Positions 7,713 to 45,566 of a stretch of DNA of 64,000 nucleotides are shown one piece after another (within the stretch, counting starts at the first letter, position 1; every line of letters starts with the position of its first letter). The DNA lies in NCBI GenBank assembly GCA_934503275.1, contig CAKSVD010000003.1, forward strand, positions 135,666-199,665, written 5' to 3'. The notes under the pieces were generated by a model, which made no database searches, had not been told where the DNA came from, and saw only the letters and a list, made by a program, of their open reading frames with translations. The DNA is from an uncultured Faecalibacterium sp. Its GTDB lineage: Bacteria; Bacillota; Clostridia; Oscillospirales; Ruminococcaceae. The position numbers were made by a program, and so were the translations under genes.

Positions 7713-7741
7713 GTCTTGCACGGGTCAATCCGTCAAAGGAC

Positions 7742-9644: not shown

Positions 9645-12600
9645 ATGCTGAAACTGGTTCTGGGCGCTTCCGGCAGCGGCAAGACCACCCTGCTGTATGC
9701 CCGTATCCGCGCCCGCGCCGAGGCGGGGAAGCGCAGCATCCTGCTGGTGCCGGAGCAGTTTACTTCCAGCACCGAGGCGCGTATCTACCGGGAGCTGGGG
9801 GATGCCCTTTCCGGTATGGTGGAAAGCTATTCCTTTACCAGTCTGGCCGAGCATATCCTTGCGGTAGAGGGCGGCGCGGCGGTGCAGACCCTGACCGATG
9901 CCGGGCGGGCGGTGCTGGTGCGCCGTGCGCTGGAGGAATTGCAGGATAATGTGCACTACTACTACCGCCACCGGCGCAGCGCAGCCTTTTGTCAGATGGC
10001 GGCCGAGACCATCGACGAGCTGAAAAGCGCCGGGCTTTCCGGACAGCAATTGCAGGAACTTGCCCGGGACTGTGGCACCGAGAGCGCAAAGTTGGGCGAA
10101 CTGGCGCTCATCTTTCAGGGCTACGAGAGCCTGCTGGCGGGCACCGGCATGGACCCTGCCGACCGTCTGGAACTGGCGGCCGACCGGCTGGAGGCCGCGC
10201 TTGCCCGGGACGAACTGCCGGACTTTTTGCACGAGCGTGAGGTGTTCATTGACGAGTTCGACACCTTCAACGCACCCAAGAAGCGGCTGATGGGTGCCAT
10301 GCTGGCCGCGCTGCCCGCCGTAACGGTGGCGCTGTGCGAGGACGGCGCACCCATGCAGCCCGGCGATCTGGAATTGTTCTCCGGTGCAAAGCAGGTGGCG
10401 GCGCAGCTGCGCCAGCTGGCACGCAAAAACGGCGCACAGGTGGCTGCGCCGGAACTGCTGCGGCGGGATCTGCGCCATAAGGATGCGCCGGGGCTTGCTG
10501 CCTTGACCGAACTGCTGGAGACCGGCAGCTGCACCCCGCCGGAAAACGCCCCGGAACTGCGGCTGTTTGCCGCCGCCAGCCGGGAGGAAGAGGCCCGCTG
10601 CGCCGCTGCCGCCATCCGCCGCCTGATGCGGCAGGGTGTGCGCTGCGGAAAAATTGCGGTGGTCTGCCGCGATATCAGCCTGTACCGGGCTGCGGTGCGG
10701 TACGAGTTCCGCATGGCAGAGATCCCTCTGTACTGCGACGAGCCCACCACCCCGGAGTTCAGCGCGCCCGCCACGGCGGTGCGGGCGCTGCTGGCATTGC
10801 TGCGGGGCGCGGACATGACCGAGCAGCTGACCGTGCTGGCCAAGACCGGCCTGTGCGCCCTGACCGAGCCGGAGGTCTGCGCGCTGGAAAACTACGCCTA
10901 CACATGGTCGCCCAATGCGGCGGCGTGGCGGGCGGAGTTTACCAAAAGCCCCCGGGGCTTTGGCGATGCCGAACTGACCGAGGAAGATACGCTGAACCTG
11001 ACCCGGGCCGAGAACGCCCGCAAAAAGCTGGTGACGGCGGTGGATACCCTGCGCAGCGGAGTGCGCAGCGCCAACGCCGAGCAGATCAGCCGGGCGCTGT
11101 ATTTCTGCCTGAAGGAACTGGGTGCAGAGGAGCAGCAGACCGCGCAGGTGGAGGATATCCGCACCGCCCGGAGCATCCCGGCGGCAGAGGAAGCCGCCCG
11201 CGAGTGGAACGTGGTGATGCAGCTGCTGGACGAGATGGCGCGGCTGCTGGGCAGTCAGGGCATCACCGTGCCGGAGTACGAGGATCTTTTCAGCCTGCTA
11301 CTGCGCTCCTCTGATCTGGGGCACATCCCGCAGACGCTGGATGCGGTGGTACTGGCAAGTGCCGGCAAAATGCGTCTGGATGCGCCGGACTATGTATTCG
11401 TGCTGGGGCTTGCGGAGGGGGAATTTCCCTGCACTCCCGCAGAGAGCGGTCTGCTGACCCACGCCGACCGTGACCTGCTGATGGCAAAACAGATCGACCT
11501 GCCGGATTGTTTTGAGAACCGCGTTGTGCGTGAGCAGGTCTGTTTTTACAAAGCCCTTACCGCCCCGGCAAAGGGGCTGTGGATGAGTTGGCCGAAAGGG
11601 CAGGGACAGACCCTGTGTGCTGCGCTGGAGCCCATCGTGGAGGCATTGCAGCCTGCCGCGCCGCAGCTGGAACTGATCGACCTTGCCGCCACCCCCGCAG
11701 ACGGGCTGGATGTGCTGGGCGGCGGCTGGCCGCTGACCGAGCGGGAGCGCGCCAGCCTGACCGAGGCGCTGCGCGCCCCCGGCGAGGGGGTGCAGGCACC
11801 CCGGGGACTTGCGCTGTTGCAGCGCATGGAGCAGGATCCACCCCGGCAGGTGCAGGATCTGCCCACGCTGGAAGCGCTGCTGGGCAGGCGGCTGCACATC
11901 TCGCCCAGCCAGCTGGAAAAATATTACACCTGCCGCTATGGCTACTTTTTGCAGTATGTGCTGGGGCTCAAGCCCCGCCGCCGTGCAGAACTTTCGGCCG
12001 ACCAGAGCGGTACGCTGATGCACTGGGTGCTGCAGATGGCACTGGACCCCCACCCCGGGGCAGACAACCCCTGCGCCGGGCTGCGCCCCTTCTTGGAACT
12101 GGATGACGCCGCCATGACCGACCTTGCCGCCGCGCTGGTGGACGAGTACGCGCGGCGCTATCTGCCGGAGGATACCGCACGCTTTACCTATCTGCTCTCC
12201 CGGCTGAAAAAGAGCATGGCCAGCCTGTTGTGCTATCTGCGGGACGAGCAGAACCAGTCCCTATTCAAGCCTGTGGCCTGTGAACTGAAGATCGGCCGGG
12301 GCGAGGACGCCGTGCCCGGGCAGGTGTACCGCCTGTCGGACGGGCGCACGGTGCAGCTGGTGGGCACGGTGGACCGCGCGGACGAGTGGATCGAGGAGGA
12401 CGGCACCCGCTGGGTGCGGGTGGTGGACTACAAGACCGGCAGCAAAAAGCTGGACTTAAAGGAAGTCTACTGCGGGCTGGACTGCCAGATGCTGTTGTAT
12501 CTGTTCAGCCTGACCCGGGATGCGGGCGGGCGCTTTACCGGTGCGCAGCCGGCGGGCGTTTTGTATCTGCTGGCCGACCCCGCCCCCCAGACCCTGCCGC

Positions 12601-13003
12601 GCGGACAGGCTGCCCGGGCGGTGGAGTACCAGCTGGACGGCCTTGTACGGGACGAGCAGAAGATCTTTGACGCCATGGACGCGGACGAAACCGGCAAGTA
12701 TCTGCCCTTTGGCTACCGCAACGGCGCGCCCAGCCCCTACCAGAAGGAGAAACGGGCCGACAGCGCCAAACTCAGCCGCATCCAATTGCATCTGGACGAC
12801 CTTGTCACCCAGATGGGCGAGCAGCTTTACGGCGGGCAGATCGACGCCGAGCCGCTGGTGTTGAGCAGCAGCAAAAGCCCCTGCACATGGTGCGATTACA
12901 GTTTTATCTGCTGCCACGAGACCGGGGTGCACGAGCGTGCGCTGGAAGCCCCTGCAAAACCCTTTGAACCCGAGGAAGGACCCGAAGAAAAGGAGGAACA
13001 GCC

Positions 13004-24915: not shown

Positions 24916-24970
24916 AAAAAGCTCCCCTCTCGGGGGAGCTGGCGCGTAAGCGCCTGAGAGGGTTCAATTT
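24916..24970 (+). repeat. Palindromic intergenic repeat, family 2, copy 2
   Basis: AGCTCCCC-TCTC-GGGGGAGCT is followed by GGCGC-GTAA-GCGCC and GAGAGGGTT. It forms an inverted pair with copy 1, ten bases away, and lies 24 bases before rnc. Confidence 0.75.
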
Positions 24971-30849: not shown

Positions 30850-31018
30850 AGAGACGCAAGGGTTGCTGTGTTTGACCCGGGCGGTTGGTACTTTCTCTGA
30901 GGACCGTCCGCTGGGGTGGGACCCTGTTGCCCGCAGGGCAATAGGGCGGGCGATGGAATGGCCCGATTCGTGTCCGAAGAGAAATGTACCCGCCGCCCGC
31001 GCCACCTCTCGTGAAAAA
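30850..31018. other. Intergenic region without a supported gene
   Basis: With the repeat that follows, this forms a gap of about 307 bases before yhbY. The first part is GC-rich. I see no frame with a ribosome-binding site and no clear RNA. A possible stem (CCGCCCGCG-like against GGGCGGGCG-like segments around 30,940-31,005) is not convincing. Confidence 0.5.
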
Positions 31019-31114
31019 GTAAAATTGAAAAATCTACAGATTTTTCAATTTTACAAAATATAAAAAGAATTCTGCTGATATTGTCAGAGCGTAAGCGGAG
31101 ACAATACTAAATCG
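31019..31114 (+). repeat. Two-hairpin repeat, family 1, copy A
   Basis: Hairpin 1 is GTAAAATTGAAAAATC, loop TACA, then its exact complement (16-4-16). After 26 AT-rich bases, hairpin 2 is TTGTC, AGAGCGTAAGCGGA, GACAA, followed by TACTAAATCG. It lies 42 bases upstream of yhbY. Copies B (40664-40760) and C (45470-45566) have the same geometry with different but compensated stems. Confidence 0.88.
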
Positions 31115-31156
31115 TTTTTTACCGGAATATCAACCTGAAAATAAAGGAGAAAAACT

Positions 31157-31453
31157 ATGCTGACTAGCAAACAGCGCGCCATTCTGCGCGGCAAGGCAAA
31201 TACCATGGACCCCGTTTATATCGTGGGCAAGGGTGAGATCGACGAGACCCTGATCCAGGGCGTGAAGGACTGTCTGGACGCCCGGGAACTCATCAAGCTT
31301 AAGGTGCTGGAAAACAGTATGTACAACGCCCGCGAGGCCGCCACCATGCTGGCCGAGGCCACCGGCGCAGACTGCGTGCAGGTCATCGGCTCCAAGTTCG
31401 TGCTGTATCTGCAAAAGAAAAAGGACAGCGCCTACGCTGCCCTGCTGAAGTAA
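31157..31453 (+). CDS. yhbY: YhbY family CRM-domain RNA-binding protein
   Basis: The 98-residue protein is one CRM domain: MLTSKQRAILRGKANTMDPV, IVGKGEIDETLIQGVKDCL, LIKLKVLENS and GADCVQVIGSKFVLY. YhbY associates with pre-50S particles and is thought to act in ribosome assembly. ATG 31157 follows AAAGGAG. nadD starts one base after its stop, so yhbY-nadD-yqeK form an operon as in many Firmicutes. Confidence 0.94.
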   Translation: MLTSKQRAILRGKANTMDPVYIVGKGEIDETLIQGVKDCLDARELIKLKVLENSMYNAREAATMLAEATGADCVQVIGSKFVLYLQKKKDSAYAALLK

Positions 31454-31454
31454 G

Positions 31455-32093
31455 ATGAAGATCCTTCTCTATGGTGGCAGCTTCGACCCACCCCATAACG
31501 GACATCTGAACAACCTGCGTGCAGCGGCAGAGCGTGTGCACCCGGATAAGATCGTGGTGATGCCGGCAGGAACCTCCCCTTTTAAGGAGGGGACGAATGC
31601 CTCCGGCGCGCTGCGGCTGGAAATGTGCCGGTGCTTTGCGGCGCTGGCGCAGGAGCCCGGGATGCCGCCGCTGGAAGTAAGCGGCTGGGAGGTGGTGCAG
31701 GCCGCAGCGGGCAGCCGCAATTATACCGTGCTCACGCTGGAAATGCTGGCAAAGGAAAACCCCGGTGCTATACTGTACTTGGCCATTGGCAGCGATATGC
31801 TGCTCAGCTTTGAGGGCTGGCACCGCTGGCAGGATATCCTGCGCCTTGCGCGGGTAGTGGTCACCAGCCGGGATATCGGCGATGCCCCGGCGCTGCACGC
31901 AAAGGCAAAGCAGCTGGACCCGTCGGGCGGACGCATCCTGTTTGCCCCGGTGCAGGCGCTGCCCATGTCCAGCAGCCAGCTGCGGGCCCGGCTTGCCGCC
32001 GGAGAAGAGTGCGAAACCGAACTGCCGGAGGAAGTGCGCAGCGTCATCCGGCGGGAGGGACTATACCGGAACACAGAAGGAAGTAGCAGATAA
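31455..32093 (+). CDS. nadD: Nicotinate-nucleotide adenylyltransferase (NadD)
   Basis: NadD adenylates nicotinate mononucleotide in NAD synthesis. The 212-residue protein shows the nucleotidyltransferase motif YGGSFDPPHNGH, MPAGTSPFK, AIGSDMLLSFEGWHRW and the C-terminal MSSSQLRARLAAG of the ISSTxIR type. It is directly followed by yqeK. Confidence 0.96.
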   Translation: MKILLYGGSFDPPHNGHLNNLRAAAERVHPDKIVVMPAGTSPFKEGTNASGALRLEMCRCFAALAQEPGMPPLEVSGWEVVQAAAGSRNYTVLTLEMLAKENPGAILYLAIGSDMLLSFEGWHRWQDILRLARVVVTSRDIGDAPALHAKAKQLDPSGGRILFAPVQALPMSSSQLRARLAAGEECETELPEEVRSVIRREGLYRNTEGSSR

Positions 32094-32672
32094 ATGGATC
32101 TGAAACAGGCAAAGGAGCTTGTGCGCGGCCGCTTGAGCGATAAGCGCTACGAGCATACCATCAACGTGAAAAAAATGGCCGTCAAGCTGGCCAAGCACTA
32201 TGGCACCGACCCGGAGCAGGCCGCACTGGCTGCGCTTTTGCACGATGCCGCCAAGGAACTGCCCAAGGACGAGATGCGCGCCATCATGCAGGCGCACCCG
32301 GAATATGCGCAGGGGGGCGAAGCACGCCCCACGCCGGTGTGGCACGGCATCTGTGCCGCCATTCTGGCGCGTACGGAGTGGGGCGTTACGGACGAAGCCG
32401 TGCTCAGCGCCATCGCCTGCCATACCGCAGGCAAGGCGGGCATGACCCAGTTGGACAAGATCCTGTATCTGGCAGATATGACCAGTGCCGAGCGGGACTG
32501 GCCGGGGGTGGAAAAGCTGCGCAAGCTGGAAATGAAGGACTTAGACGCAGCCATGCTGGCAGCGCTCAGGCAGACCAACGGCTTTGTGCTGTCCGACGGC
32601 AAACCCCTTGACCCCGAGAGCAAGGCCGCCTACGAGGATATCTTAGCGCACAGCGGGCAGAATGAAGGGTGA
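32094..32672 (+). CDS. yqeK: HD-domain symmetrical Ap4A hydrolase (YqeK)
   Basis: The 192-residue HD-domain protein has RYEHTINVKKMAVKLAKHY, the metal-binding LLHDAAKELP, a histidine in VWHGICAAIL, and CHTAGKAGMTQLDKILYLADM. YqeK proteins hydrolyse diadenosine tetraphosphate to two ADP. It starts immediately after nadD and usually precedes rsfS; here an LCP gene is inserted between them. Confidence 0.93.
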   Translation: MDLKQAKELVRGRLSDKRYEHTINVKKMAVKLAKHYGTDPEQAALAALLHDAAKELPKDEMRAIMQAHPEYAQGGEARPTPVWHGICAAILARTEWGVTDEAVLSAIACHTAGKAGMTQLDKILYLADMTSAERDWPGVEKLRKLEMKDLDAAMLAALRQTNGFVLSDGKPLDPESKAAYEDILAHSGQNEG

Positions 32673-32722
32673 AAAGCCGGACACCGGTTGAAAATGGTTC
32701 CGGCCATCCCCGGATAAAACAA

Positions 32723-32751
32723 TTGCAGATTTTGCCATACCATGTTATACT
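32723..32751 (+). promoter_or_regulatory. Sigma-A promoter of the LCP gene
   Basis: TTGCAG (32723-32728) and TATACT (32746-32751) are 17 bases apart, 69 bases before the LCP start. A new transcript therefore begins after yqeK. Confidence 0.75.
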
Positions 32752-32819
32752 GAAGGATATGACAGGTCTGCAGGTAAAAAACTCTGCAGAGCAGTGAAAA
32801 GCTGGAGGATACAAAAAGC

Positions 32820-34196
32820 ATGAGCCAGACGCCACGCCATATCAATACAGACCGCTCACTCGGCCGCCCGGATCAGGCAGCCAGTGCTTCCCGCCCCACG
32901 CCGGAGCAGCAGAATACCCGCAGCACTGCCGGGGCGCAGCACGCCGCACCTCCCCGCCGCCCGGCACAGCCCGACATGGGCGGGGACGGTGCACCGCGCC
33001 GCCGCAAAAAGAAGAAAAAGACCCCGCTGTGGCTGCCCTTTGCCATCGTGATGGGTGTGATCGCCGTGATCTCCGGTGTGGTGGTGTACGGCGTGAGCCT
33101 TGTGAACAAGGTGGAGGACAGCATCCGCCCGGCAGAAAGCGCCCCCTCCATCGTGCAGGAGATCCAGACTGCCGAGGAATACAAGGGCGATGTGGTCAAC
33201 ATTCTGGTCTGCGGCATCGACTTTGAAGAGGGCCGCACCTACAGCGACGCCAGTTCCAACGACGGTATGACGGATATGATCCTGTATTGCCAGTTCGATA
33301 TCAAGGGCGGTGCGCTGCGGATGCTGCAGATTCCCCGCAACACGCTGGTGACCACCCAGAACCGCAAGCTTACCCTCTCCAACGGCAAGACCTATGCCGT
33401 TTCCAACTACCAGATCAACTCGGTGGCACTTTCCAACGGCGGCAGCATTGCCGCGCTGGCAGATGTCATCTACGACCAGTACCACCTGCCCATCGACTAC
33501 TATGTCACGATTGATATGCAGGCACTGGTGGAAATGGTGGATAACTTCGGCGGCATCGAGGTGTATATCCCCCGGGATATGTCCTACGGCGGCAGTAAAC
33601 TGCTGAAGGGCTACCGCAATCTGGACGGTGCCTCGGCGGAGTTCTTTGTGCGCTGCCGCCACGGCGACGGCTACGCAAACTCTGATATCGACCGCTTGAA
33701 TATGCAGCGCTACTTCTACGCAGGCCTGTTCAAGCGCGCCCGCGCCATGGGCATTACCGATATCCTGAACCAGCTGCCGCTGATATTCAAGGACTATATC
33801 CACACGGATATGGATATCACCACCATCGCAAAGCTGCTGGCGTCCTTCCTTAAGATCGACAGCTCCAATATCATTCTGGCGCAGACGCCGGTGTTCATGG
33901 GTGTGCCCAACGTGGGCAAGACCGACTCCTTTGCCGGCTATTCCTGCGTGGTGCCGGATGCCGGCTCCATCGCAAATCTGCTCAACCAGTATTTCTGCAC
34001 CTACACCGGCCCGGTGGAGGTAAGCGAGTTGCACATGGTCACCGACCAGTGGCCCCACGGCAGCGCATCCACCGATGCCAACGTGCAGTATATGGGACGC
34101 ATCGATAAGGAATCTGACGACGCCATCCTCGGCGGCGATACCGACCTTTCCGGCGCTGTGACCACCGATGGTCAGGCAGCGGGCACCGGACAGTAA
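32820..34196 (+). CDS. LytR-CpsA-Psr (LCP) family cell-wall ligase
   Basis: LCP enzymes transfer glycopolymers from lipid carriers to peptidoglycan outside the membrane. The 458-residue protein has a disordered basic N-terminus (about 1-75, with RRRKKKKK), a membrane segment (about 77-100) and an extracellular LCP domain: VVNILVCGIDFEE, MLQIPRNTLV, MVDNFGGIEVYIPRDM, and RCRHGDGYANSDIDRLNMQR. The start is ATG 32820 after a GGAGG site. It interrupts the usual yqeK-rsfS pair. Confidence 0.93.
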   Translation: MSQTPRHINTDRSLGRPDQAASASRPTPEQQNTRSTAGAQHAAPPRRPAQPDMGGDGAPRRRKKKKKTPLWLPFAIVMGVIAVISGVVVYGVSLVNKVEDSIRPAESAPSIVQEIQTAEEYKGDVVNILVCGIDFEEGRTYSDASSNDGMTDMILYCQFDIKGGALRMLQIPRNTLVTTQNRKLTLSNGKTYAVSNYQINSVALSNGGSIAALADVIYDQYHLPIDYYVTIDMQALVEMVDNFGGIEVYIPRDMSYGGSKLLKGYRNLDGASAEFFVRCRHGDGYANSDIDRLNMQRYFYAGLFKRARAMGITDILNQLPLIFKDYIHTDMDITTIAKLLASFLKIDSSNIILAQTPVFMGVPNVGKTDSFAGYSCVVPDAGSIANLLNQYFCTYTGPVEVSELHMVTDQWPHGSASTDANVQYMGRIDKESDDAILGGDTDLSGAVTTDGQAAGTGQ

Positions 34197-34258
34197 CAAC
34201 AGAAAACAACGCCCTGCACACCGGGTGCGGGGGATGTTCCGACAGAAGGGAGAAACAT

Positions 34259-34642
34259 ATGGATAATTTCAACGACAGCAAGGCGCTTGCCATTGAGATC
34301 GCCAAGATTTTGGACAAGAAGAAGGCGCAGGATGTGCGGGTGCTCAAGGTGGAAAGCCTGACCGTCCTGACCGATTACTTCGTCATTGCCTCTGGTACCT
34401 CCACTACGCAGGTGGCCTCTCTGGCAGATGAGGTGGAGTACGAGCTTTCGCAGAAGGGTCTGGAACCCTATAGCACCGAGGGCCACGACACCAAGAACTG
34501 GGTGCTGCTGGATTACTCTAACGTCATCGTGCACGTCTTTGTGCCCAACAGCCGCGCCTACTATGATCTGGAGCACCTGTGGGCAGACGGCGAGCCGGTG
34601 GACATCTCGGAGTACCTGACCCCGGATAGCAGCATTGAATAA
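34259..34642 (+). CDS. rsfS: Ribosomal silencing factor RsfS
   Basis: RsfS binds L14 and blocks subunit joining under starvation. The 127-residue protein matches the family: LAIEIAKILDKKKAQDVRVL, LTDYFVIASGTSTTQVASLADEVE, and NWVLLDYSNVIVHVFVPNSRAYYDLEHLW. GAAGGGAG precedes ATG 34259. Confidence 0.95.
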   Translation: MDNFNDSKALAIEIAKILDKKKAQDVRVLKVESLTVLTDYFVIASGTSTTQVASLADEVEYELSQKGLEPYSTEGHDTKNWVLLDYSNVIVHVFVPNSRAYYDLEHLWADGEPVDISEYLTPDSSIE

Positions 34643-34710
34643 TTAAGGCAAACAGGTCTACCTCCGGTAAAAGTCCTCTTTGTGATTGCGGCGCAATAGG
34701 GAAAGTTGGC

Positions 34711-34768
34711 AAAAACTTCCCCTTGGGGGAGTTGGCAGGGCGAATGCCCTGACAGAGAGGGTTTATAC
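34711..34768 (+). repeat. Palindromic intergenic repeat, family 2, copy 3
   Basis: AACTTCCCC-TTG-GGGGAGTT is followed by GGCAGGGC-GAAT-GCCCTGAC and GAGAGGGTTT, the same layout as copies 1 and 2 near rnc. CCGGTAAA upstream and TTTATACCGG downstream may add an outer stem. It lies between rsfS and leuS. Confidence 0.7.
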
Positions 34769-34839
34769 CGGAAGTACCTTGAAAGCATACACACCCCAAG
34801 CAACGGTATTTTGGTTAAAGTCTGGAGCTGATTACAAAC

Positions 34840-37389
<2,550 letters not shown>

Positions 37390-37518
37390 GAACTGCTGCT
37401 CCGCTGAATAAGCGTGAACATATCATCACCCGCAGAGGCGGACCCGGCGCAGGAAACACCCGGGGGCGTCTGTTCAAAAATCTTTCAAAAGTTTTGAGCA
37501 AAAACTTTCAAAAAAAGG

Positions 37519-37547
37519 TTGACGAACCGGATAAAATGCGCTATACT
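37519..37547 (+). promoter_or_regulatory. Sigma-A promoter of rpsU
   Basis: TTGACG (37519-37524) and TATACT (37542-37547) are 17 bases apart, 64 bases before rpsU. Confidence 0.85.
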
Positions 37548-37610
37548 GTCTACTGTTAGTTACCATGTAACAACGAAATTCCTGCCTCACGGTCCAAGGG
37601 AGGGAATAAG

Positions 37611-37787
37611 ATGTCGGAAATTCGTGTTAAAGAGGGCGAGTCGCTGGAAAGCGCACTGCGTCGCTTCAAGCGCAGCACTGCTCGCAGCGGTGTGCTCGCA
37701 GAGGTTCGTAAGCGCGAGGCTTACGAGAAGCCGTCTGTTAAGCGCAAGAAGAAGTCCGAAGCAGCCCGCAAGCGCAAGTTCAAGTAA
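37611..37787 (+). CDS. rpsU: 30S ribosomal protein S21
   Basis: The 58-codon frame ([20 protein letters not shown], then [20 protein letters not shown], ending KRKFK) matches S21 over its full length. A GGGAGGGAA site precedes ATG 37611. It is short enough to be missed by length-filtered gene finding. A terminator follows. Confidence 0.97.
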
Positions 37788-37843
37788 TTGATTGCTTGGA
37801 ATCGCACGTTGCTTTAGATTTTAAACGCGTTGCTAACGCCGAT

Positions 37844-37880
37844 GTAGGGGAGCCTGTTTATGCAGGTTCCCCTATTTTCA
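37844..37880 (+). terminator. Terminator after rpsU
   Basis: TAGGGGA(G)CCTG pairs with CAGG(T)TCCCCTA and is followed by TTTTCATTTT. Confidence 0.85.
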
Positions 37881-37923
37881 TTTTAAAGCTGCTTTGCGCA
37901 GGGCAGACTGAGAGGGTCTATTT

Positions 37924-38427
37924 ATGCTCATTACCCCCGAATATGTTTTTAAGGACGTTACCCACATCACGCCGGAATGGCTTGCCGCCAAGGGCATCAC
38001 GGCTCTGGTGCTGGATATCGACAACACCCTGACCGCAGACCGCAGTCAGGAACTGCCGGAGGAGGTGGCCGCGTGGCTTGCCGCCATGCGCAAGGCCGGG
38101 GTAAAGCTGACCATCGTCTCCAACGGCGCAGAAAAGCGGGTGCGCCCCTTTGCTGAAAAGCTGGGCCTTGCCTATCTGTATCGCGCCGCCAAACCCCTGC
38201 CTTTTGCGCTGATGGCGGCGCAGCACCGCATGGGCGTGAAGCACCGCCAGATGGCCATGGTGGGCGACCAGCTTTACGCCGACCGCATGGTGGCGGCGCT
38301 GTACGGCATTCCCGGGCTGATGGTCATCCCCCGCGGACCGGATTTGGGTGCACAGGTCATCCTCAAGCGCAAGTGGGAAAAAAAGCACTGGCAAAAGTAC
38401 TACGACAGAGGAGGTAAGACCCTGTGA
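37924..38427 (+). CDS. yqeG: YqeG family HAD-type phosphatase
   Basis: The 167-residue protein is a HAD IIIA phosphatase of the YqeG family. Visible motifs are I (LVLDIDNTLTADR), II (LTIVSNG) and III/IV (MAMVGDQLYADRMVA). Substrate is unknown. GTGAG overlap joins it to the next gene, whose GTG 38424 lies across its stop. Confidence 0.92.
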   Translation: MLITPEYVFKDVTHITPEWLAAKGITALVLDIDNTLTADRSQELPEEVAAWLAAMRKAGVKLTIVSNGAEKRVRPFAEKLGLAYLYRAAKPLPFALMAAQHRMGVKHRQMAMVGDQLYADRMVAALYGIPGLMVIPRGPDLGAQVILKRKWEKKHWQKYYDRGGKTL

Positions 38428-39293
38428 GCGAAGCTTGGAACATCCGGTTCGGCACCGCAGGCACCAGCGACAGCTTTGCTGCCCAAGGCTACAAAAGCAG
38501 CTTGGATGTGCCGGAGTACACCGCAAAAATGGGGCTGAACGCCTTTGAGTACCAGTGCGGGCGCGGGGTGCGTCTGGGGCTGGATAAGGCCGCCCGCATG
38601 GCTGCCCTTGCCGCCCAGCAGGATATCCTGTTCAGCGTCCACGCACCTTATTATATCAGTATGTCCAGTCTGGAAGAGGACAAGCGGCTGAACAGCATCC
38701 AGTACCTGCTGCAAAGCGCGGCGGTGTGCCGGGCGCTGGGCGGCAGACGCATCATCTTCCACTCCGGCAGCTGTGGCAAGCAGAGCCGGGAAGCCGCGCT
38801 GGAAAAGGCGCTGGATACCATGCGCCGCGCCGTGGCTGCGCTGGACGAGGCAGGCTTTGAGGATATGACCCTGTGCCCGGAGACCATGGGCAAGGTGGGG
38901 CAGCTGGGCACGCTGGACGAGGTGCTGACGCTGTGCGGCGTGGACAGCCGCATCACCCCCTGTATCGACTTCGGACATCTGAACGCCCGCACGCTGGGCG
39001 GCATCCGGACCAAGGCAGACTACGCCGCCATTCTGGACCGCATGGCTGAGGTGCTGGGCGATGACCGCGCCCGGCAGTTCCATGTGCACTTTTCCCGCAT
39101 CGAGTACTCAGCGGGCGGCGAAAAGCGCCACTGGACCTTTGCCGATACCCAGTTCGGCCCGGAGCCCCAGCCCCTGATGGAGTTGCTGGCACAGCGTCAG
39201 CTGACGCCGGTGGTCATCTGCGAGAGTGCGGGCACGCAGGCCGAGGATGCGCAGATGATGCAGCAAATGTACCGCGCAGCGCGGAATGTGTAA
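38424..39293 (+). CDS. Endonuclease IV-like TIM-barrel protein
   Basis: The 289-residue protein resembles AP endonuclease family 2 (Nfo) with its metal ligands: FSVHAPYYISM, IIFHSGSCG, LCPETMGKVGQLG, CIDFGHLNAR, FHVHFSRIEYS and VVICESA. Endonuclease IV cuts 5' to abasic sites with three zinc ions. The family also includes sugar isomerase-like barrels, so DNA repair is likely but not certain. The start is GTG 38424, four bases into the yqeG stop overlap, with GAGGAGG upstream. Confidence 0.85.
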   Translation: MSEAWNIRFGTAGTSDSFAAQGYKSSLDVPEYTAKMGLNAFEYQCGRGVRLGLDKAARMAALAAQQDILFSVHAPYYISMSSLEEDKRLNSIQYLLQSAAVCRALGGRRIIFHSGSCGKQSREAALEKALDTMRRAVAALDEAGFEDMTLCPETMGKVGQLGTLDEVLTLCGVDSRITPCIDFGHLNARTLGGIRTKADYAAILDRMAEVLGDDRARQFHVHFSRIEYSAGGEKRHWTFADTQFGPEPQPLMELLAQRQLTPVVICESAGTQAEDAQMMQQMYRAARNV

Positions 39294-39332
39294 AAGATTT
39301 TGTGTTTTTATCGTCTTTTTTGCCCAAACCCC

Positions 39333-39361
39333 TTGCCAAACAGGGGCAGATTGGGTAAAAT
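39333..39361 (+). promoter_or_regulatory. Sigma-A promoter of efp
   Basis: TTGCCA (39333-39338) and TAAAAT (39356-39361) are 17 bases apart, 52 bases before efp. Confidence 0.75.
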
Positions 39362-39412
39362 AAATAGAGATATGCGTTAAGCATCTGAGATTAAATTTAT
39401 GGAGGAATTCCT

Positions 39413-39970
39413 ATGATTTCTGCAGGCGAGTTTCGCAATGGCGTGACCTTTGAGCAGGACGGCCAGGTTCTTCAGGTCGTTGAGTTCCAGCACGTCAAGC
39501 CCGGCAAGGGCGCTGCCTTTGTCCGCACCAAGACCAAGAACGTGATCACCGGCTCTGTGGTTGAGACCAGCTACAACCCCACCGCAAAGTTCCCGCAGGC
39601 TTTCATCGAGCGCAAGGACGTGACCTACAGCTATGAGGATGGCGATCTGTACCACTTCATGGACAACGAGACTTACGATGACATCCCCGTCAACGCAAGC
39701 GATGTGCCCGATAACTTCAAGTTCTGCAAGGAGAACGAGCTGTGCAAGCTGCTGAGCTACAAGGGCAAGGTGTTCAGCGTTGAGATCCCCAACTTCATCG
39801 AGCTGGAAGTCACCCAGACCGAGCCGGGTGTCAAGGGCAACACTGCTACCAACACCCTGAAGCCCGCTACCGTTGAGACTGGCGCCGAGATCCGTGTGCC
39901 TCTGTTCATCAACGAGGGCGATCACATCCGCATCGATACCCGCACCGGCGAGTATATGGAGCGCGTCTGA
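39413..39970 (+). CDS. efp: Elongation factor P
   Basis: EF-P rescues ribosomes stalled at polyproline. The 185-residue protein has three beta domains, with the modifiable residue as K32 in VKPGKGAAF and the C-terminal [18 protein letters not shown] lysine in that loop is shared with EF-P proteins that do not carry rhamnosyl-arginine. No modification enzyme is in the window. TGGAGG precedes ATG 39413. Confidence 0.97.
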
Positions 39971-39991
39971 TCATTTGTCGCATACCGGGCA

Positions 39992-40017
39992 GCGGGCAAC
40001 CGTTTGCCCGGTTTTTT
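39992..40017 (+). terminator. Terminator after efp
   Basis: CGGGCAA pairs with TTGCCCG and is followed by GTTTTTTG. The next gene starts 28 bases later, so it may be partial. Confidence 0.78.
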
Positions 40018-40044
40018 GTATGATAAGTTAGGAGGGCATTTCAG

Positions 40045-40638
40045 ATGGAACTGAACAAGAAGGCAGCCTACCTGCAGGGCTTAGTGGACGGTCTGGGCGT
40101 GGATGAAAGCACTAAAGAGGGCAAGATCATCAAGGCCATGGCTGCGCTGCTGGGCGAGATGGCCGATGCCATTGCCGCCATGGACGAGGATCTGACCCAC
40201 GCCTACGACCAGATCAACGATCTGAGCGAGGAACTGGAGGATCTGGAGGCCGACCTGTACGAGGACGAGGATGCCGAGGACGAGGATGCCGAGGACGAGG
40301 ACGACGACGCAGCCGACGAGGATGAGGATGCGGGAGATGATGACATCGCCAGCGAGCCCTTCTACGAGGTAGCCTGCCCCGCCTGCGGCGAGACTGTCTA
40401 CGTCAGCGAGGATGATCTGGATGCAGGCGAAGCCAACTGCGCCCACTGCGGTGTGACCTTTGAGGTCGCACTGGAAGGCGACGAGGAGGACGAAGCCAAG
40501 GACGCCCCTGTGCAGTACGAGGTGACCTGCCCCGCCTGCGGAAAGACCGCCGTATTTGAGGAGGATGAGCTGCTGGACGGTGCACCCAAGTGCCCCAACT
40601 GCGGCGAGCCGCTGGACTTTGAGGTGACTGAGGAGTAA
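40045..40638 (+). CDS. CD1247-like N-terminal domain protein with two zinc ribbons
   Basis: The 197-residue protein begins with a helical domain (KAAYLQGLVDGLGVDESTKE) that I recognise as the CD1247-type domain often found after efp in Clostridia. A very acidic linker (about 70-105, repeats of EDEDAED) leads to two zinc ribbons: CPACGETVYV...CAHC and CPACGKTAVF...CPNC. The function is unknown; zinc ribbons and an acidic linker suggest a protein or RNA partner. GGAGG precedes ATG 40045. Confidence 0.85.
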   Translation: MELNKKAAYLQGLVDGLGVDESTKEGKIIKAMAALLGEMADAIAAMDEDLTHAYDQINDLSEELEDLEADLYEDEDAEDEDAEDEDDDAADEDEDAGDDDIASEPFYEVACPACGETVYVSEDDLDAGEANCAHCGVTFEVALEGDEEDEAKDAPVQYEVTCPACGKTAVFEEDELLDGAPKCPNCGEPLDFEVTEE

Positions 40639-40663
40639 ACGCTTCTTCATCGCCCGTGAAAAG

Positions 40664-40760
40664 GCAATTTTGGAAAATCCGCAGATTTTCCAAAATTGCA
40701 ATCTAAAAAAGAAATTCCTATGAATATGGCCAAAGCGCACGCGAAGGCCATTCCAAATCG
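40664..40760 (+). repeat. Two-hairpin repeat, family 1, copy B
   Basis: Hairpin 1 is GCAATTTTGGAAAATC, loop CGCA, then the exact complement. After 27 bases hairpin 2 is TGGCC, AAAGCGCACGCGAA, GGCCA, then TTCCAAATCG. This copy lies between convergent genes, so an upstream-leader role does not fit it. Confidence 0.88.
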
Positions 40761-40773
40761 TCCCTGTAAAAAC

Positions 40774-40809
40774 GCAATGCCGGGCAGTCCGCAGACTGTC
40801 CGGCATTGT
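40774..40809. repeat. Extra 16-bp hairpin with CGCA loop beside repeat copy B
   Basis: GCAATGCCGGGCAGTC, loop CGCA, GACTGTCCGGCATTGT: again 16-4-16, with two G-U pairs. It begins 13 bases after copy B and may be a further module of the same family, or the terminator of the convergent genes. Confidence 0.7.
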
Positions 40810-40824
40810 TCATTTTAATTTGGT

Positions 40825-41112
40825 TCAGCGGTTCTCATTAGCCTTCTGCAGCCAGATGCCGCCGATGTCCAGCGCATTATACAGGCCGTGCTTGGTGGTC
40901 TGACGCGCTACGCGCTCCTGCGGTGCCTTGGTGGTATCCGTAGAAAGCAGCATCAGGTGTACCTTGTCGGCTACCTGCTGCTCGCCCACCGGGGTGGTGG
41001 TCAAAATCTGCAGATACAGCACATAGGGATCGGTCATGCTGCCGTAATACAGCTCGTTGTCCTTGCGGACGAGGGGCTTGCCTTTATAAGTCAGTTTCGG
41101 TGTATATGCCAT
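40825..41112 (-). CDS. Conserved-looking hypothetical protein, 95 aa
   Basis: I do not recognise this protein. It reads MAYTPKLTYKGKPLVRKDNE, then a possible beta-rich middle (YVLYLQILTTTP), and ends in GLYNALDIGGIWLQKANENR. There is no signal peptide, membrane segment or cysteine. A GGGAGG site precedes ATG 41112, and a minus-strand extended -10 (TGTTATACT, around 41144-41152) lies upstream, so it looks like a genuine monocistronic gene. It is convergent with the zinc-ribbon gene. Confidence 0.75.
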   Translation of the reverse strand: MAYTPKLTYKGKPLVRKDNELYYGSMTDPYVLYLQILTTTPVGEQQVADKVHLMLLSTDTTKAPQERVARQTTKHGLYNALDIGGIWLQKANENR

Positions 41113-41334
41113 CGTGAAAGCCTCCCTGTCGTTTGATTCATCTTAGTATAACACATCCTGCCTATGGGATGCAAGCGTTTGCGGCAGGGCTGTGTCGGTT
41201 TTGCACCAAAACTGCTCCGCATCGTGCAAAACCGGCGGCGCATTTTTTGGCAAATGGGGCTTGCTGTTGGGTGCAGTTATGCTATACTATAAATAGAACA
41301 GCCCGTACTCCGGGCCGGAAGCGAGGGAACGACA

Positions 41335-42234
41335 ATGGCAGATTATCAGGAATACCGGCGGCGCATCCTGCACCGGCGCTGGCGCAGGGTGTTTATCATC
41401 GTTGCCCTTCTGGCGCTTCTGGCTCTGCTGGGAGCCATCGGCATCCTGTGGAAGGTGCTGCACCGGGAGCGCGTGGATACCACCCTGAGCCAGAACACCA
41501 TTCTGCGGCAGGTGACCACGGACAACACGTGGAACACGGTCAGCTACCCGCTGGCGCGGCAGCTGCGGGTGCAGACGCTGGAGGACAGTACGGAAACCGC
41601 GCTAGACTTCCGCATGGCAGCGCTGCCAGCCAGCGCCCCGGTGGAAAAAAGCTGGTTTGCGCAGGCCAGCTTTGTGGGCGACAGCCTAACGCAGGGCTTG
41701 CAGATCTACGATACCGGTCTGCCCGGGGCGCAGTTCTGCGCCTATAAGGGGGTAGGCCCCAACGCCTTTGTCAACGGCACCAGCTGCAAACGGGTGGACG
41801 GCGTGACAGAGATCCCACTGGACGCCTTGACCGCCCAGCAGCCCAAGGCTGTCTATGTACTGCTGGGCAGCAATGTGCTGGGGCGGGACACCGACTACAC
41901 CAGCTTTCTGACCTACTACCGTCTGATGCTGGATATGATCAGTCAGGCGCTGCCGGACACAAAAATTTATGTACAGTCCATCACGCCGGTGCGTCCGGAG
42001 GTGAGCGCGCAGGCAAACCACGCAGGGCTGAACCGCGACCGCCTGTGCCACATCAACAACGAGTTGGCCGCCATTGCACTGGAAAAGAACTGCTACTTCC
42101 TCAACCTTTGGGAGGTACTGGCGGACGAAAACGGCGATCTGATCGAAAGCTATGCCCAGCCGGACGGCTACCATATCAAGCCGGAGGGCTACGCCGCATG
42201 GGTGGACTACCTTTGCAGCCACACCATGGAGTGA
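41335..42234 (+). CDS. Membrane-anchored SGNH/GDSL hydrolase
   Basis: The 299-residue protein has a basic cytoplasmic start, one membrane segment (about 18-42) and an extracellular SGNH domain. Visible blocks are I (FVGDSLTQG with the serine nucleophile), III (LLGSNVLGRDTD) and V (PDGYHIKPEG with the Asp-His pair). Such enzymes deacylate or deacetylate cell-wall and surface glycans. The target is unknown. A promoter with TATACT near 41283 lies upstream. Confidence 0.88.
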   Translation: MADYQEYRRRILHRRWRRVFIIVALLALLALLGAIGILWKVLHRERVDTTLSQNTILRQVTTDNTWNTVSYPLARQLRVQTLEDSTETALDFRMAALPASAPVEKSWFAQASFVGDSLTQGLQIYDTGLPGAQFCAYKGVGPNAFVNGTSCKRVDGVTEIPLDALTAQQPKAVYVLLGSNVLGRDTDYTSFLTYYRLMLDMISQALPDTKIYVQSITPVRPEVSAQANHAGLNRDRLCHINNELAAIALEKNCYFLNLWEVLADENGDLIESYAQPDGYHIKPEGYAAWVDYLCSHTME

Positions 42235-42246
42235 AAAAGAACATAC

Positions 42247-42278
42247 AAAAGGCGCTGTCCTTGCGGACAGCGCCTTTT
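42247..42278. terminator. Bidirectional terminator between the SGNH gene and fhs
   Basis: AAAAGGCGCTGTCC, loop TTGC, GGACAGCGCCTTTT: a perfect 14-bp stem between convergent genes. Confidence 0.93.
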
Positions 42279-42299
42279 GTGTTTTATCAGGCTTTTTTA

Positions 42300-43961
42300 T
42301 CAGAACAGGCCGGTGATCTTGCCGTCTGCGTCCACGTCGATGTTCACGGCGGCGGGCTTTTTGGGCAGGCCGGGCATGGTCATGATGTTGCCGCAGATCA
42401 CCACCACAAAGCCTGCGCCGGCGGCCAGACGCACCTCGCGCACTTCCATGGTGAAGCCGGTGGGCGCACCGGTCAGCTTGGCATTGTCACTGAAGCTGTA
42501 CTGGGTCTTGGCGATGCAGACGGGCAGGTTGCCGTAGCCCATCTCGGTCAGTTCGGCCAGCGTCTTGCTGGCGGCGGCGCTGAAGTTCACGCCGTCGGCG
42601 CGGTAGATCTTGGTGGCAATGGCGTTGATCTTGTCCTTCAGGGGCATCTCCAGCGGGTAGGTGTACTGGATGGGACGATCCTCCAGGATCTCCAACACCT
42701 TCTCAGCCAGTGCCTTGCCGCCCTCGCCGCCCTTGGCGAATACCTCGCTCAGCACGCAGGGCACGCCCTGCTCGGCGCACACCTGCTCCACATAGGCCTG
42801 CTCCTCGGCGGTGTCGGTGGGGAAGGCATTGATGGCTACCACCACCGGCAGACCGAAGCCGTTCTTCAGGTTGTCGATGTGGCGGATCAGGTTGGAGGCA
42901 CCGGCCTTGACAGCCTCGAGGTTGGGCTGGTTCAGGTCTGCCTTGGCTACGCCGCCGTGGCTCTTGAGGGCACGCACGGTAGCCACCAGCACACAGGCAG
43001 AGGGGGCAATGCCGGCGTAGCGGCACTTGATATCCAAGAACTTCTCCGCACCCAGATCGGCGCCGAAGCCTGCCTCGGTAATGGTATAGTCTGCCAGCGA
43101 GAGGCTGAGTTTGGTGGCCAGCACACTGTTGCAGCCGTGGGCAATGTTGGCAAAGGGGCCGCCGTGGATGATGGCGGGGTTGTTCTCCAGCGTCTGCACA
43201 AGGTTCGGGTCCAGTGCGTCCTTCAGCAGGGCGGTCATGGCACCGGCTGCGCCGATCTCACCGGCGGTCACCGGCTTGCCGTCGTAGGTGTAGGCGCACA
43301 CGATGCGGGACAGCCGCTCCTTCAAATCGGAGATGCTGGTGGCAAGGCAGAAGATGGCCATGACCTCGCTGGCCACGGTGATGTCAAAGCCGTCCTCGCG
43401 GGGGGTGCCGTTCACCTTGCCGCCCAGACCGTCCACGATGAACCGCAGCTGACGGTCGTTCATGTCCATGCAGCGCTTCCAGGTGATGCGGCGGGGGTCG
43501 ATGTTCAGCGGGTTGCCCTGCTGGATGCTGTTGTCGATCATGGCAGCCAGCAGGTTGTTGGCAGTGCCAATGGCGTGCAGGTCGCCGGTAAAGTGCAGGT
43601 TGATGTCCTCCATGGGCACCACCTGTGCGTAGCCGCCGCCGGCAGCGCCGCCCTTTACGCCGAACACGGGGCCAAGGCTGGGCTCGCGCAGGCAGAGCAT
43701 GGTCTTTTTGCCCAGTGCGTTCATGGCATCGGCCAGACCTACGCTGGTAGTGGTCTTGCCCTCACCGGCAGGGGTGGGGCTGATGGCGGTGACAAGGATC
43801 AGCTTGCCCTGCTTTTTGGCGTTGTGGATCAGCCGGTGGTCGATCTTGGCCTTGTAGCGGCCATAGGGAATCACACTTTCCTCCTTCAGACCCAGCTGGG
43901 CTGCGATCTGGGTGATGGGCTTCATTTTAGCTTCCTGCGCGATCTCGATATCGGTCTTCAT
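42300..43961 (-). CDS. fhs: Formate-tetrahydrofolate ligase
   Basis: The enzyme makes 10-formyl-THF from formate, ATP and THF, feeding purine synthesis and one-carbon metabolism. The 553-residue protein has the ATP loop [39 protein letters not shown], and PTDTAEE in the THF region. It starts at ATG 43961 ([13 protein letters not shown]) behind AAGGAGG; the frame extending to 44072 runs through the riboswitch. Expression is controlled by a ZTP riboswitch in its leader. Confidence 0.97.
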
Positions 43962-43983
43962 ACAGACATCCTCCTTGATAGCA

Positions 43984-44025
43984 AAAAAGGACAGCTTTGC
44001 GCAGCAATTGCGCAAGGCTGCCCAG
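43984..44025 (-). terminator. Expression-platform terminator of the ZTP riboswitch
   Basis: On the minus strand GGGCAGC and TTGCGCA pair with TGCGCAA and GCTGTCC, followed by TTTTTT. The 5' arm shares GGGCAGC with the 3' conserved core of the aptamer, so ligand binding and termination exclude each other. Confidence 0.88.
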
Positions 44026-44096
44026 ACGGTCGGCATTGACATCCCATGCACCCCTGCACTGTGGTGCTCCACAAGGTTCCGTCAGCAGGGGTGCGG
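44018..44096 (-). promoter_or_regulatory. ZTP riboswitch (pfl motif) upstream of fhs
   Basis: On the minus strand GCACCCCTGC (about 44086-44095) closes with GCAGGGGTGC (44047-44056). Inside are the conserved CTGACGGAACC and a TGTGG-AGCA-CCACA hairpin. The 3' core reads GCCGACCGTCTGGGCA (44019-44034), the pfl signature CCGnCTGGGC. These riboswitches bind ZMP/ZTP, a signal of 10-formyl-THF shortage, and turn on genes such as fhs. Location, both conserved cores and the overlapping terminator all agree. Confidence 0.93.
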
Positions 44097-44107
44097 TCTA
44101 TGTTGTA

Positions 44108-44137
44108 AAGATAGCACACCACCGGGGTGTTTGTCAA
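44108..44137 (-). promoter_or_regulatory. Promoter of the fhs transcript
   Basis: On the minus strand TTGACA (44132-44137) and TATCTT (44108-44113) are 18 bases apart, directly upstream of the riboswitch. Confidence 0.75.
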
Positions 44138-44180
44138 GGAGGTACAGTTACAAAAATCACCCATAAATGCATAAATTTTT

Positions 44181-44209
44181 TTGCGTTATCCAAGGGTTTG
44201 TGCTATACT
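44181..44209 (+). promoter_or_regulatory. Promoter of the cysteine desulfurase gene
   Basis: TTGCGT (44181-44186) and TATACT (44204-44209), 17-base spacer, TGC before the -10. Confidence 0.75.
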
Positions 44210-44257
44210 TATTCTGGGTTATTATGAAAACAACGACAGAAAGCAGGAAATCCGTTT

Positions 44258-45409
44258 ATGCTGCAAAACCCTCAGTTACATTATCTGGACAACGCGGCCA
44301 CCACCATCGTAGCGCCCGAGGTGGCGGACGTCATCGACAAGGCCATGCGGGAGCACTGGGCAAACCCTTCCAGCCTGTACGGCCCGGGCGCGCGCAGTGA
44401 AGAGGCTTTGAACGCCGCCCGCGCCGCCGTGGCGCGCACGCTGGGCTGCAAAAGCCGGGAACTGTATTTCACCTCCTGCGGCAGCGAGAGCAACAATCTG
44501 GCGCTGCTGGGCGCAGTGCAGACCCGCACCTTCGGCAAGGGCATTGTGGTGTCCGGCTTCGAGCACCCCAGTGTGCAGCGGCCGCTGGAGCGGCTGGCAA
44601 AGCAGGGCTACGACGTTACCGTGGTAGCCCCCCGGGCAGACGGCACGCTGGACATTGCCGCCATGCTGGAGCGGGTGGACAAAAACACCATCCTTGTGGC
44701 CTGCATGATGGTGAACAACGAGATCGGCACCCGCAACGATGTGGAGCGCCTTGCCGCCGAGGTAAAGCGCCGCAACAGCCGCACCATCGTCCATGTGGAC
44801 GCAGTGCAGGCGTGGATGCGTGTGCCCATCAAGCTGGATAACATCGACACGCTCTCGGTGAGCGGCCACAAAATCCACGCACCCAAGGGCATTGGTGCGC
44901 TCTACCTTTCCGACCGGCTGGTGCAGGCCTTCCAGCCGCCCTATCTGGGCGGCGAGCAGGAGCGGCAGATGCGCCCCGGCACCGAAAACCTGCCCTACGC
45001 CATGGGTCTGGCCGCAGCGGCCACCCGTCTGGCAAAGACCATGAAGAGCCGGGACACCGCCATGCGTGCGCTGAACCGGCAGCTGCGGGAGGGGCTGAAG
45101 GCCTTCCCGGAGGTAGTCATCAACAGCCCGGAGAACGCCGTGCCCGAGGTGTTGAACTTCAGCGAGAGGTGCATCAAGAGCGAGACCATGCTGGCTTTTC
45201 TGGCCGAAGAGCAGATCTACGTCTCCTCGGCCAGTGCCTGCGGGCGCGGCCAGCCCAGCCACACGCTGGCAGCCATGGGACGCGACCCGCTGGCCATCGA
45301 CACCGCCATCCGGGTGTCCTTCTGTGCGGACAACACCCCGGAGGATGTGGATGCCTTCCTCAACCGCTTCGAGGACGGCATGAAGCACTTGCAGAAGATC
45401 AGAAAGTAA
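44258..45409 (+). CDS. Cysteine desulfurase (NifS/IscS family)
   Basis: The PLP enzyme removes sulfur from cysteine as an enzyme-bound persulfide. The 383-residue protein shows YLDNAATT, TSCGSESNNLAL, HVDAVQAW, the PLP lysine in SGHKIHAPKG and the catalytic cysteine in SSASACGRGQPSH. The location immediately upstream of thiI is the Bacillus NifZ-ThiI arrangement, so its likely job is to supply sulfur for 4-thiouridine at U8 of tRNA rather than general Fe-S assembly. Confidence 0.95.
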   Translation: MLQNPQLHYLDNAATTIVAPEVADVIDKAMREHWANPSSLYGPGARSEEALNAARAAVARTLGCKSRELYFTSCGSESNNLALLGAVQTRTFGKGIVVSGFEHPSVQRPLERLAKQGYDVTVVAPRADGTLDIAAMLERVDKNTILVACMMVNNEIGTRNDVERLAAEVKRRNSRTIVHVDAVQAWMRVPIKLDNIDTLSVSGHKIHAPKGIGALYLSDRLVQAFQPPYLGGEQERQMRPGTENLPYAMGLAAAATRLAKTMKSRDTAMRALNRQLREGLKAFPEVVINSPENAVPEVLNFSERCIKSETMLAFLAEEQIYVSSASACGRGQPSHTLAAMGRDPLAIDTAIRVSFCADNTPEDVDAFLNRFEDGMKHLQKIRK

Positions 45410-45469
45410 AAACTGAAGCCGTTCTATGGGAAGATGCAGTTTGCCTGCGCGACCCTAATGCGTGAAAGG

Positions 45470-45566
45470 GTGAATGGAAAATGACCGCAGTCATTTTCCA
45501 TTCACAGATAAAAATAATTCATCCGCTGAATATGGCCAGAGCGAAAGCGGAGGCCATTATAAATCC
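45470..45566 (+). repeat. Two-hairpin repeat, family 1, copy C
   Basis: Hairpin 1 is GTGAATGGAAAATGAC, loop CGCA, then its exact complement. After 27 bases hairpin 2 is TGGCC, AGAGCGAAAGCGGA, GGCCA, then TTATAAATCC. It ends 22 bases before the thiI start, between the desulfurase gene and thiI. Confidence 0.88.

Follow-up and report, generated by a model that had tools for sequence, protein, structure and literature searches.

How can the two arms of a long palindrome stay perfectly matched while their sequence changes from one copy to the next? The question is raised by three copies of a two-hairpin repeat in a 64,000-nucleotide stretch of DNA from an uncultured Faecalibacterium sp. (contig CAKSVD010000003.1 of assembly GCA_934503275.1, positions 135,666 to 199,665 of the forward strand; hereafter the window, numbered from its first letter), which lie in the leaders of yhbY and thiI and between a Zn-ribbon gene and a convergent open reading frame (ORF). 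Each copy carries a 16-bp perfect hairpin, P1, followed by an AT-rich linker and a smaller hairpin, S2. Our preferred answer, which we hold with slightly better than even confidence, is that these are copies of a non-autonomous mobile repeat of Faecalibacterium, akin to repetitive extragenic palindromes (REPs) and miniature inverted-repeat transposable elements, sometimes paired head to head, and built round an interchangeable perfect DNA palindrome, P1, whose sequence changes with the arms kept matched and which combines with different 3' blocks. We favour this reading because the family is large, is present or absent at orthologous gaps, and shows compensated stem changes at an orthologous locus, and because P1 is nearly independent of the 3' block, mismatches in the inner stem carry no signature of an RNA selected on one strand, and copies are biased towards gene 3' ends.

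Faecalibacterium is one of the commonest bacteria of the human gut. Many full copies of the repeat lie directly behind stop codons, and copies differ between strains. With its variable yet perfect stem, the repeat is also a natural setting in which to test whether selection maintains long palindromes or whether one arm is copied from the other at the DNA level.

The copy family and its matched arms

The consensus unit reads, from 5' to 3', a 5' block, GTGAAAA, P1, the AT-rich linker, TTCCGCTGA, S2 and AAATCGT, and the element is non-autonomous and about 95-150 bp long. The 5' block is AAATGCCGTTT..CC..TACGACCCCTCCC, its distal part being present in 52 of 119 copies at the threshold used, and the GTGAAAA directly 5' of P1 is among the most conserved parts of the element. 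The P1 loop is CGCA in 178 of 207 distinct P1-bearing matches, and S2 has the consensus AUGNNC/GNNCAU with an ARAGC..GCGGA apex, occurring in nine fully Watson-Crick forms among 136 parsed copies.

A blastn search with one copy against G001, the nearest genome compared, returned 26 rows at E<=0.0112, including the first row's self-match on the reverse strand. The initial annotation had proposed a covariance model and a search of relatives, and such a search bore out a large family: sequence from four relatives, 2.4 Mb in all, yielded 143 additional matches at E<=0.001, counting truncated copies, of which 77 came from 1.6 Mb and 66 from the other 0.8 Mb. Matches per 400 kb numbered 37 in G023, 25 in G006, 15 in G030 and 0 in G012, and a second G023 sample gave 66 in a further 798 kb. 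Full-length copies reached a density of 48-51 per Mb in G023 and G006, and G030 had 28 per Mb; by extrapolation, the G023 genome (3.2 Mb) would contain roughly 160 of them and that of G030 about 80. Among 100 relatives, 12 matched, all of one genus, eight with at least 35 scored matches each and four with one to three; under strict filters that lose weak matches, none was found in the 19 other genus members or in the 69 genomes outside the genus. Within 297 genomes of the taxonomic family, matches occurred in two, both in the genus. Identity of ThiI to that of the window is 95-99% in the eight copy-rich genomes and 92-93% in the four copy-poor ones, and stands at 93% and 92% in two genomes without matches, G012 and G005. 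An exact pattern for the 3' half recovered 15 contig stretches in the genome collection, exclusively from Faecalibacterium. The repeat is a dispersed family confined, as far as searched, to Faecalibacterium and abundant in one clade. The exact element pattern was not found in viral contigs, nor did a plasmid search match the element; among 50,697 phage records, eight matched in part, and these, without exception short entries from faeces that lack annotation and are named 'Bacteriophage sp.', may be bacterial DNA.

Paired change in both hairpins had been proposed from the window alone, and it proved real. In a 24-copy alignment, both-side changes occur at 14 of 17 P1 pairs and four of six S2 pairs, far above shuffled and slid controls; alignment A2 excluded L009 and L025, in which the script found no P1, as well as L024, L003+482, L030 and L015. 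At the thiI locus, seven distinct orthologous sequences had 100% of cells paired, and all five changed P1 pairs were compensated, four of them forming a contiguous block. At the yhbY locus, two P1 and two S2 pairs differ between G029 and the window lineage, all of them matched as read from the alignment. The 207 distinct P1-bearing matches, a set that takes in truncated ones, comprise 136 arm sequences, and 133 of the stems show no departure from Watson-Crick pairing; 136 S2-bearing matches have 84 arms and 94 perfect stems. Per-site difference among 49 G023 copies was 0.49 in the arms, 0.43 in the AT-rich linker (ungapped) and 0.25-0.28 in the flanks, where the register is approximate.

The rare mismatches bear on what is being maintained. 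When distinct stems with at most two departures were taken from the same 207 matches and the outermost pair was left out, the inner 15 pairs held 15 distinct single G-U departures and 23 A-C departures (p=0.26). Distinct mismatches of other kinds numbered 25, with pairs 7-8 accounting for 15. The inner pairs show no excess of G-U over A-C and therefore do not point to an RNA selected on one strand. An early hint of a plus-strand RNA (22 G-U against 11 A-C in 137 copies) was dropped after this larger count. The initial annotation had left the choice between selection for structure and a mobile palindrome; on the mismatch count, the mobile palindrome fits better than an RNA selected on one strand.

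The P1 stem is nearly unlinked to the 3' block that follows it. Among 43 G023 copies, the Mantel correlation between the two was 0.10 (p=0.08), and the 3' blocks of 26 pairs with identical 16-nt arms differed by 14.7, against 16.5 overall, 15 of these pairs coming from one stem. Because three of five orthologous G006/G023 pairs have identical stems and the other two differ at 11 and 6 of 16 positions (the latter at a site that is also otherwise rearranged), we conclude that stems are mostly inherited at a site and sometimes exchanged, with the arms kept matched. Recombination between stem halves was considered and set aside, only one four-haplotype quartet having been found.

Orthologous gaps were compared in 20 fetched regions, of which 19 were measurable at thiI, 11 at the convergent gap and 13 at yhbY. 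At thiI, the element fills the gap in the window and in seven genomes, and the gap is only 7-24 nt long in G029, G007, G026, G005, G016, G020 and G028. At the convergent, Zn-ribbon gap, the element is found in the window and four genomes, and in seven others a gap of 45-71 nt contains what was judged by eye to be an ordinary hairpin-T-run terminator. Three genomes have a yhbY gap of 21-22 nt. Both filled and empty orthologous sites, a hallmark of mobile elements generally and a comparison that the initial annotation had suggested, were thus seen at all three loci, and truncated and overwritten copies also stand at orthologous places. Since the element is present in the window and missing from the thiI, yhbY and Zn-ribbon gaps of relatives, it is, or was, mobile.

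Copies also occur in close pairs. Among copies passing the P1 filter, 11 of 11 pairs less than 300 bp apart are head to head, two of these pairs being orthologous to each other; a twelfth was dropped, being the same place called on both strands. In low-copy G007, two of the three matches likewise form a head-to-head pair. By inspection, there are no terminal inverted repeats in a single unit. The Y1 transposase family PF01797 occurs in 11 of 31 genus genomes and is missing from G006 and G031, both rich in copies. Two Y1 copies of G023 were inspected: one adjoins an element and the other does not. An IS200-like Y1 transposase element was noted directly after terminator T-runs in L182 (about 10050-10800) and L188 (about 12200-12900), and in L182 it adjoins the 3' end of a main-family copy.

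Gene ends and the terminator question

Two of the three window copies stand in leaders, but leaders are not the typical location of the family. We placed 69 copies on gene calls made by a simple script and set aside 18 that fell inside predicted ORFs; the 51 intergenic copies left comprise 23 in convergent, 3 in divergent and 25 in co-directional gaps. Copies favour convergent gaps (23/51, against 180 of 771 gaps of at least 100 nt; p=0.001) and avoid divergent ones (3/51 against 195/771; p=0.001). For 34 copies, the 3' neighbour is on the opposite strand, with its stop codon at a median distance of 11 nt. No clear replication-strand bias of the copies was seen.

Intrinsic (Rho-independent) terminators consist of a stem followed by a U-run, lie near gene ends and are free in stem sequence. 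On the reverse strand P1 has the same features: the A-run adjoining it yields a U-run of 4-6 after the hairpin in 127 of 136 S2-bearing copies, and on the forward strand 131 of the 136 have at most one T after P1, an asymmetry that suggests a one-way terminator role. P1 differs from ordinary intrinsic terminators in sitting within a larger conserved dispersed element, in having its U-run of 4-6 followed by a conserved CAC, and in that full-length copies are not enriched in a gene-end test (9/21 against 129/366). That test, a stricter scan, counted gene ends with a terminator-like hairpin behind them: 25 of 42 where the 3' end of a match is faced, 13 of 41 where its 5' side is faced and, among ends without a match, 129/366 of the convergent and 118/452 of the co-directional ones (25/42 against 129/366, p=0.004). 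A terminator role is thus plausible for some copies and truncated remnants.

Weighing the explanations

If the favoured reading is right, the element would have spread in one clade and settled at gene ends, where harm is least. Copies landing behind a stop codon would be tolerated or kept, and P1 with its reverse-strand U-run could act as an intrinsic terminator for the abutting gene. The arms may be kept matched at the DNA level, by template switching in the palindrome and/or by a transposase that recognises a single-stranded hairpin, with selection for a stable stem acting alongside, and exchange between copies would spread the stems. Matched arms are compatible with each of these three processes, and because the loop and GTGAAAA are conserved, selection or recognition probably plays a part. 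A bolder proposition, which we regard as unlikely, is that P1 is an exchangeable palindrome cassette, in which a structure-recognising or template-switching process rewrites both arms together and moves stems between copies as the rest of the element stays. Were it true, the family might serve as a mobile hairpin kit by which gene ends are remodelled throughout the genome of a major gut commensal.

Several results weigh against the mobile repeat. The missing copies in relatives could partly reflect loss. A scan of 5-mers at the ends of single units, whose 5' limit is uncertain, revealed no target-site duplication of at least 5 bp (18/79 against 15.5 expected; 6/40 against 7.7), and no mobilising enzyme emerged among Y1, RVT_1 and IS110, each of which is absent from at least two of eight rich genomes. 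No module border separates the outer from the inner half of the stem (r=0.27; an interleaved split gives 0.32). The numbers in the mismatch test are small, and the outermost P1 pair, left out of it, has 23 G-U against 7 A-C. The conserved P1 loop and the conservation of some stem bases mean that DNA-level arm correction is not the whole story. As to gene ends, the context counts depend on the simple-script gene calls; the U-run frequency arises partly by construction, because the A-run belongs to the search model; and U-runs of 4-5 are short. When split by score, full-length copies do not differ significantly from convergent ends (p=0.49), and the terminator enrichment stems from low-scoring or truncated matches (16/21); such matches are hairpins with an A-run, and the model may select them for that reason.

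It is also conceivable, though we consider it improbable, that the element encodes a structured RNA, regulatory or mRNA-stabilising, transcribed from its own strand, and that selection acts at the RNA level on P1, S2 and perhaps a pseudoknot. The strong covariation of P1 and S2, the conserved unpaired blocks, the low folding z-scores and the G-U preference of the outermost P1 pair would all agree with such an RNA. A further point in its favour is that the S2 apex could be half of an H-type pseudoknot, S1, in which TCCGCT pairs with AGCGGA, a candidate suggested by 90.6% pairing against 37-66% in slid controls. S1, however, shows no covariation or compensatory change in the 24-copy alignment or in 157 rows, where both strands are intact in 120, only the 5' strand is changed in 22, only the 3' strand in 11 and both in four. 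Nor do the inner P1 pairs have the G-U excess that an RNA would lead one to expect, related species lack the element at the same genes, and Rfam yields no gathering-score match to the three elements in the window, its matches in the yhbY leader and in two 20-kb loci being at chance level. Purely mutational upkeep, in which a functionless, dead repeat has its arms equalised by template switching at quasi-palindromes, strikes us as rather doubtful. It accounts for perfect arms of free sequence, for inner-stem mismatches without strand bias and for the contiguous block of four changed pairs at thiI, but sits poorly with a loop and GTGAAAA more conserved than the arms, with covariation in an S2 of only 6 bp and with the non-random position and orientation at gene ends.

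Even less probable, in our judgement, is that the repeats are host terminators, a family with loop and flank in common that has spread by ordinary recombination, not as a mobile element. P1-like hairpins without the rest of the element do resemble terminators in the same genomes, and the preference for gene ends agrees with this view. Yet the linker, S2 and 3' end are conserved without a terminator role, copies form head-to-head pairs and are missing at orthologous gaps of relatives, the 400 kb of element-free G012 contain no perfect CGCA-loop hairpins of at least 12 bp, and there is no enrichment of terminator-like hairpins behind genes that face a full-length copy.

The mobile repeat that we favour has partial parallels among known elements. 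According to Di Nocera et al. (PMC3733652), REPs are short, high-copy, non-coding intergenic palindromes of 20-40 bp, occurring as singlets and dimers, and the CGTC REP families lack a dedicated transposase. The Faecalibacterium repeat resembles REPs and REPINs in being high-copy, intergenic, palindromic and non-coding, with inverted (head-to-head) dimers, but differs in its length, its two hairpins and a stem that varies between copies as the flanks are conserved. It differs from the GTAG REPs in having no GTAG in its consensus, the palindrome foot being GTGAAAA, and in that a RAYT/Y1 transposase (PF01797) does not consistently accompany the repeats, and from the CGTC REPs in that CGTC lies near its 3' end (AAATCGTC), not at the palindrome foot. 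According to the review by Delihas (PMC2229807), YPAL/RU-2, ERIC, RUP and Correia/NEMIS are elements of about 100-200 bp with no autonomous gene that form stable stem-loops in transcripts, YPAL having empty and filled sites and target-site duplications of 3-26 bp. So described, they share with the Faecalibacterium element a similar size, the lack of an autonomous gene and, for YPAL, empty and filled sites; the Faecalibacterium element differs in having no detected target-site duplication of at least 5 bp, two separate hairpins and interchangeable P1 arms. The CIR repeats of Caulobacter, described in PMC2229807 too, likewise consist of two hairpin arms joined by a linker, but carry a GANTC motif at a loop, whereas the conserved parts here are GTGAAAA, the CCGCAG loop and S2. 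No description of this family appears in the literature searched, including the portions consulted of PMC3733652, PMC2229807 and PMC12306157.

The window copies and neighbouring repeats

The three copies have the positions and geometry that the initial annotation had given them, and the flanking genes agree with its placement in two leaders and one convergent gap: a CRS1_YhbY gene lies downstream of copy 1, a ThiI gene downstream of copy 3, and copy 2 stands between the Zn-ribbon gene and an opposing ORF of 95 aa that has no Pfam match. Two dimensions had to be revised. The small stem, described as 5 bp, has 6 bp in each copy, and the 96-97 nt unit is the core of a longer element, with GTGAAAA and, in 52 of 119 copies, a further block 5' of P1. 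Folding z-scores are -4.73, -4.70 and -5.98 for copies 1, 2 and 3. A covariance model built on 24 training copies (21 from G001 and the three of the window itself) scores the three at 105-114 bits and everything else in the window at 23 bits or less. Their features are as follows.

31011..31018, + strand: GTGAAAAA motif of copy 1, giving a U-run after P1 on the reverse strand; P1 of copy 1 scored terminator-like on the minus strand
31019..31054, + strand: P1 of copy 1, 16-bp perfect hairpin with TACA loop, yhbY leader
31071..31105, + strand: S2 hairpin of copy 1, ATTGTC (31080-31085)/GACAAT (31100-31105), including the candidate pseudoknot; S2 covaries
31071-31076 and 31094-31099, + strand: candidate pseudoknot of copy 1, TCTGCT/AGCGGA, pairing without covariation
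31109..31115, + strand: AAATCGT end block of copy 1; 3' end conserved in the 45 parsable matches out of 77
40656..40662, + strand: GTGAAAA motif of copy 2
40664..40699, + strand: P1 of copy 2, 16-bp perfect hairpin with CGCA loop, between convergent genes
40726..40751, + strand: S2 hairpin of copy 2, ATGGCC/GGCCAT; candidate pseudoknot strand degenerate (TTCCTATG)
40755..40761, + strand: AAATCGT end block of copy 2
40774..40809, + strand: second P1-like hairpin with CGCA loop, adjoining copy 2, terminator-like on the + strand
45430..45461, + strand: 5' block of copy 3 (GAAGATGCAGTTTGCCTGCGCGACCC...), outer limit uncertain
45462..45469, + strand: GTGAAAGG motif of copy 3
45470..45505, + strand: P1 of copy 3, 16-bp perfect hairpin with CGCA loop, thiI leader
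45522..45557, + strand: S2 hairpin of copy 3, ATGGCC (45532-45537)/GGCCAT (45552-45557), including the candidate pseudoknot
45522-45527 and 45546-45551, + strand: candidate pseudoknot of copy 3, TCCGCT/AGCGGA
45561..45565, + strand: AAATC end of copy 3

Other small repeats keep company with the family. One (GGACCGTCCGCTGGGGTGGGACCCTGTTGCCCGCAGGG...), at 30870-30985 of the window, is bounded by TTTCTCT/AGAGAAA and has outer arms that are matched but locus-specific; it also occurs in the thiI gap of L077-L080, where its orientation in L077 and L078 is opposite to that in L079 and L080, and in L087 of G012, a genome without a main-family match. Another, of about 105 bp (GCAACGACGACGACCGCCGCC...GCAACCCG), lies inside or beside main-family copies at L127:13337-13560, in the L078 thiI gap, and in L024 and L026, and gives 3-7 blastn rows per 400-kb segment, G012 included. 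The repeat CTCAGTCGCTGCGCGACAGCTCCCCCAAGGGGGAGC, at 24921-24962 of the window and in the G023, G006 and G030 segments, often lies immediately upstream of the main element or occupies its site instead. In the yhbY leader of G027 (L077), a different perfect palindrome (GTGAAATGAAACTGA...TCAGTTTCATTTCAC) stands where the element would be. Elsewhere in the window, Rfam matches at gathering score are a 6S RNA at 7511-7715 and a ZMP/ZTP riboswitch at 44013-44099, both on the minus strand.

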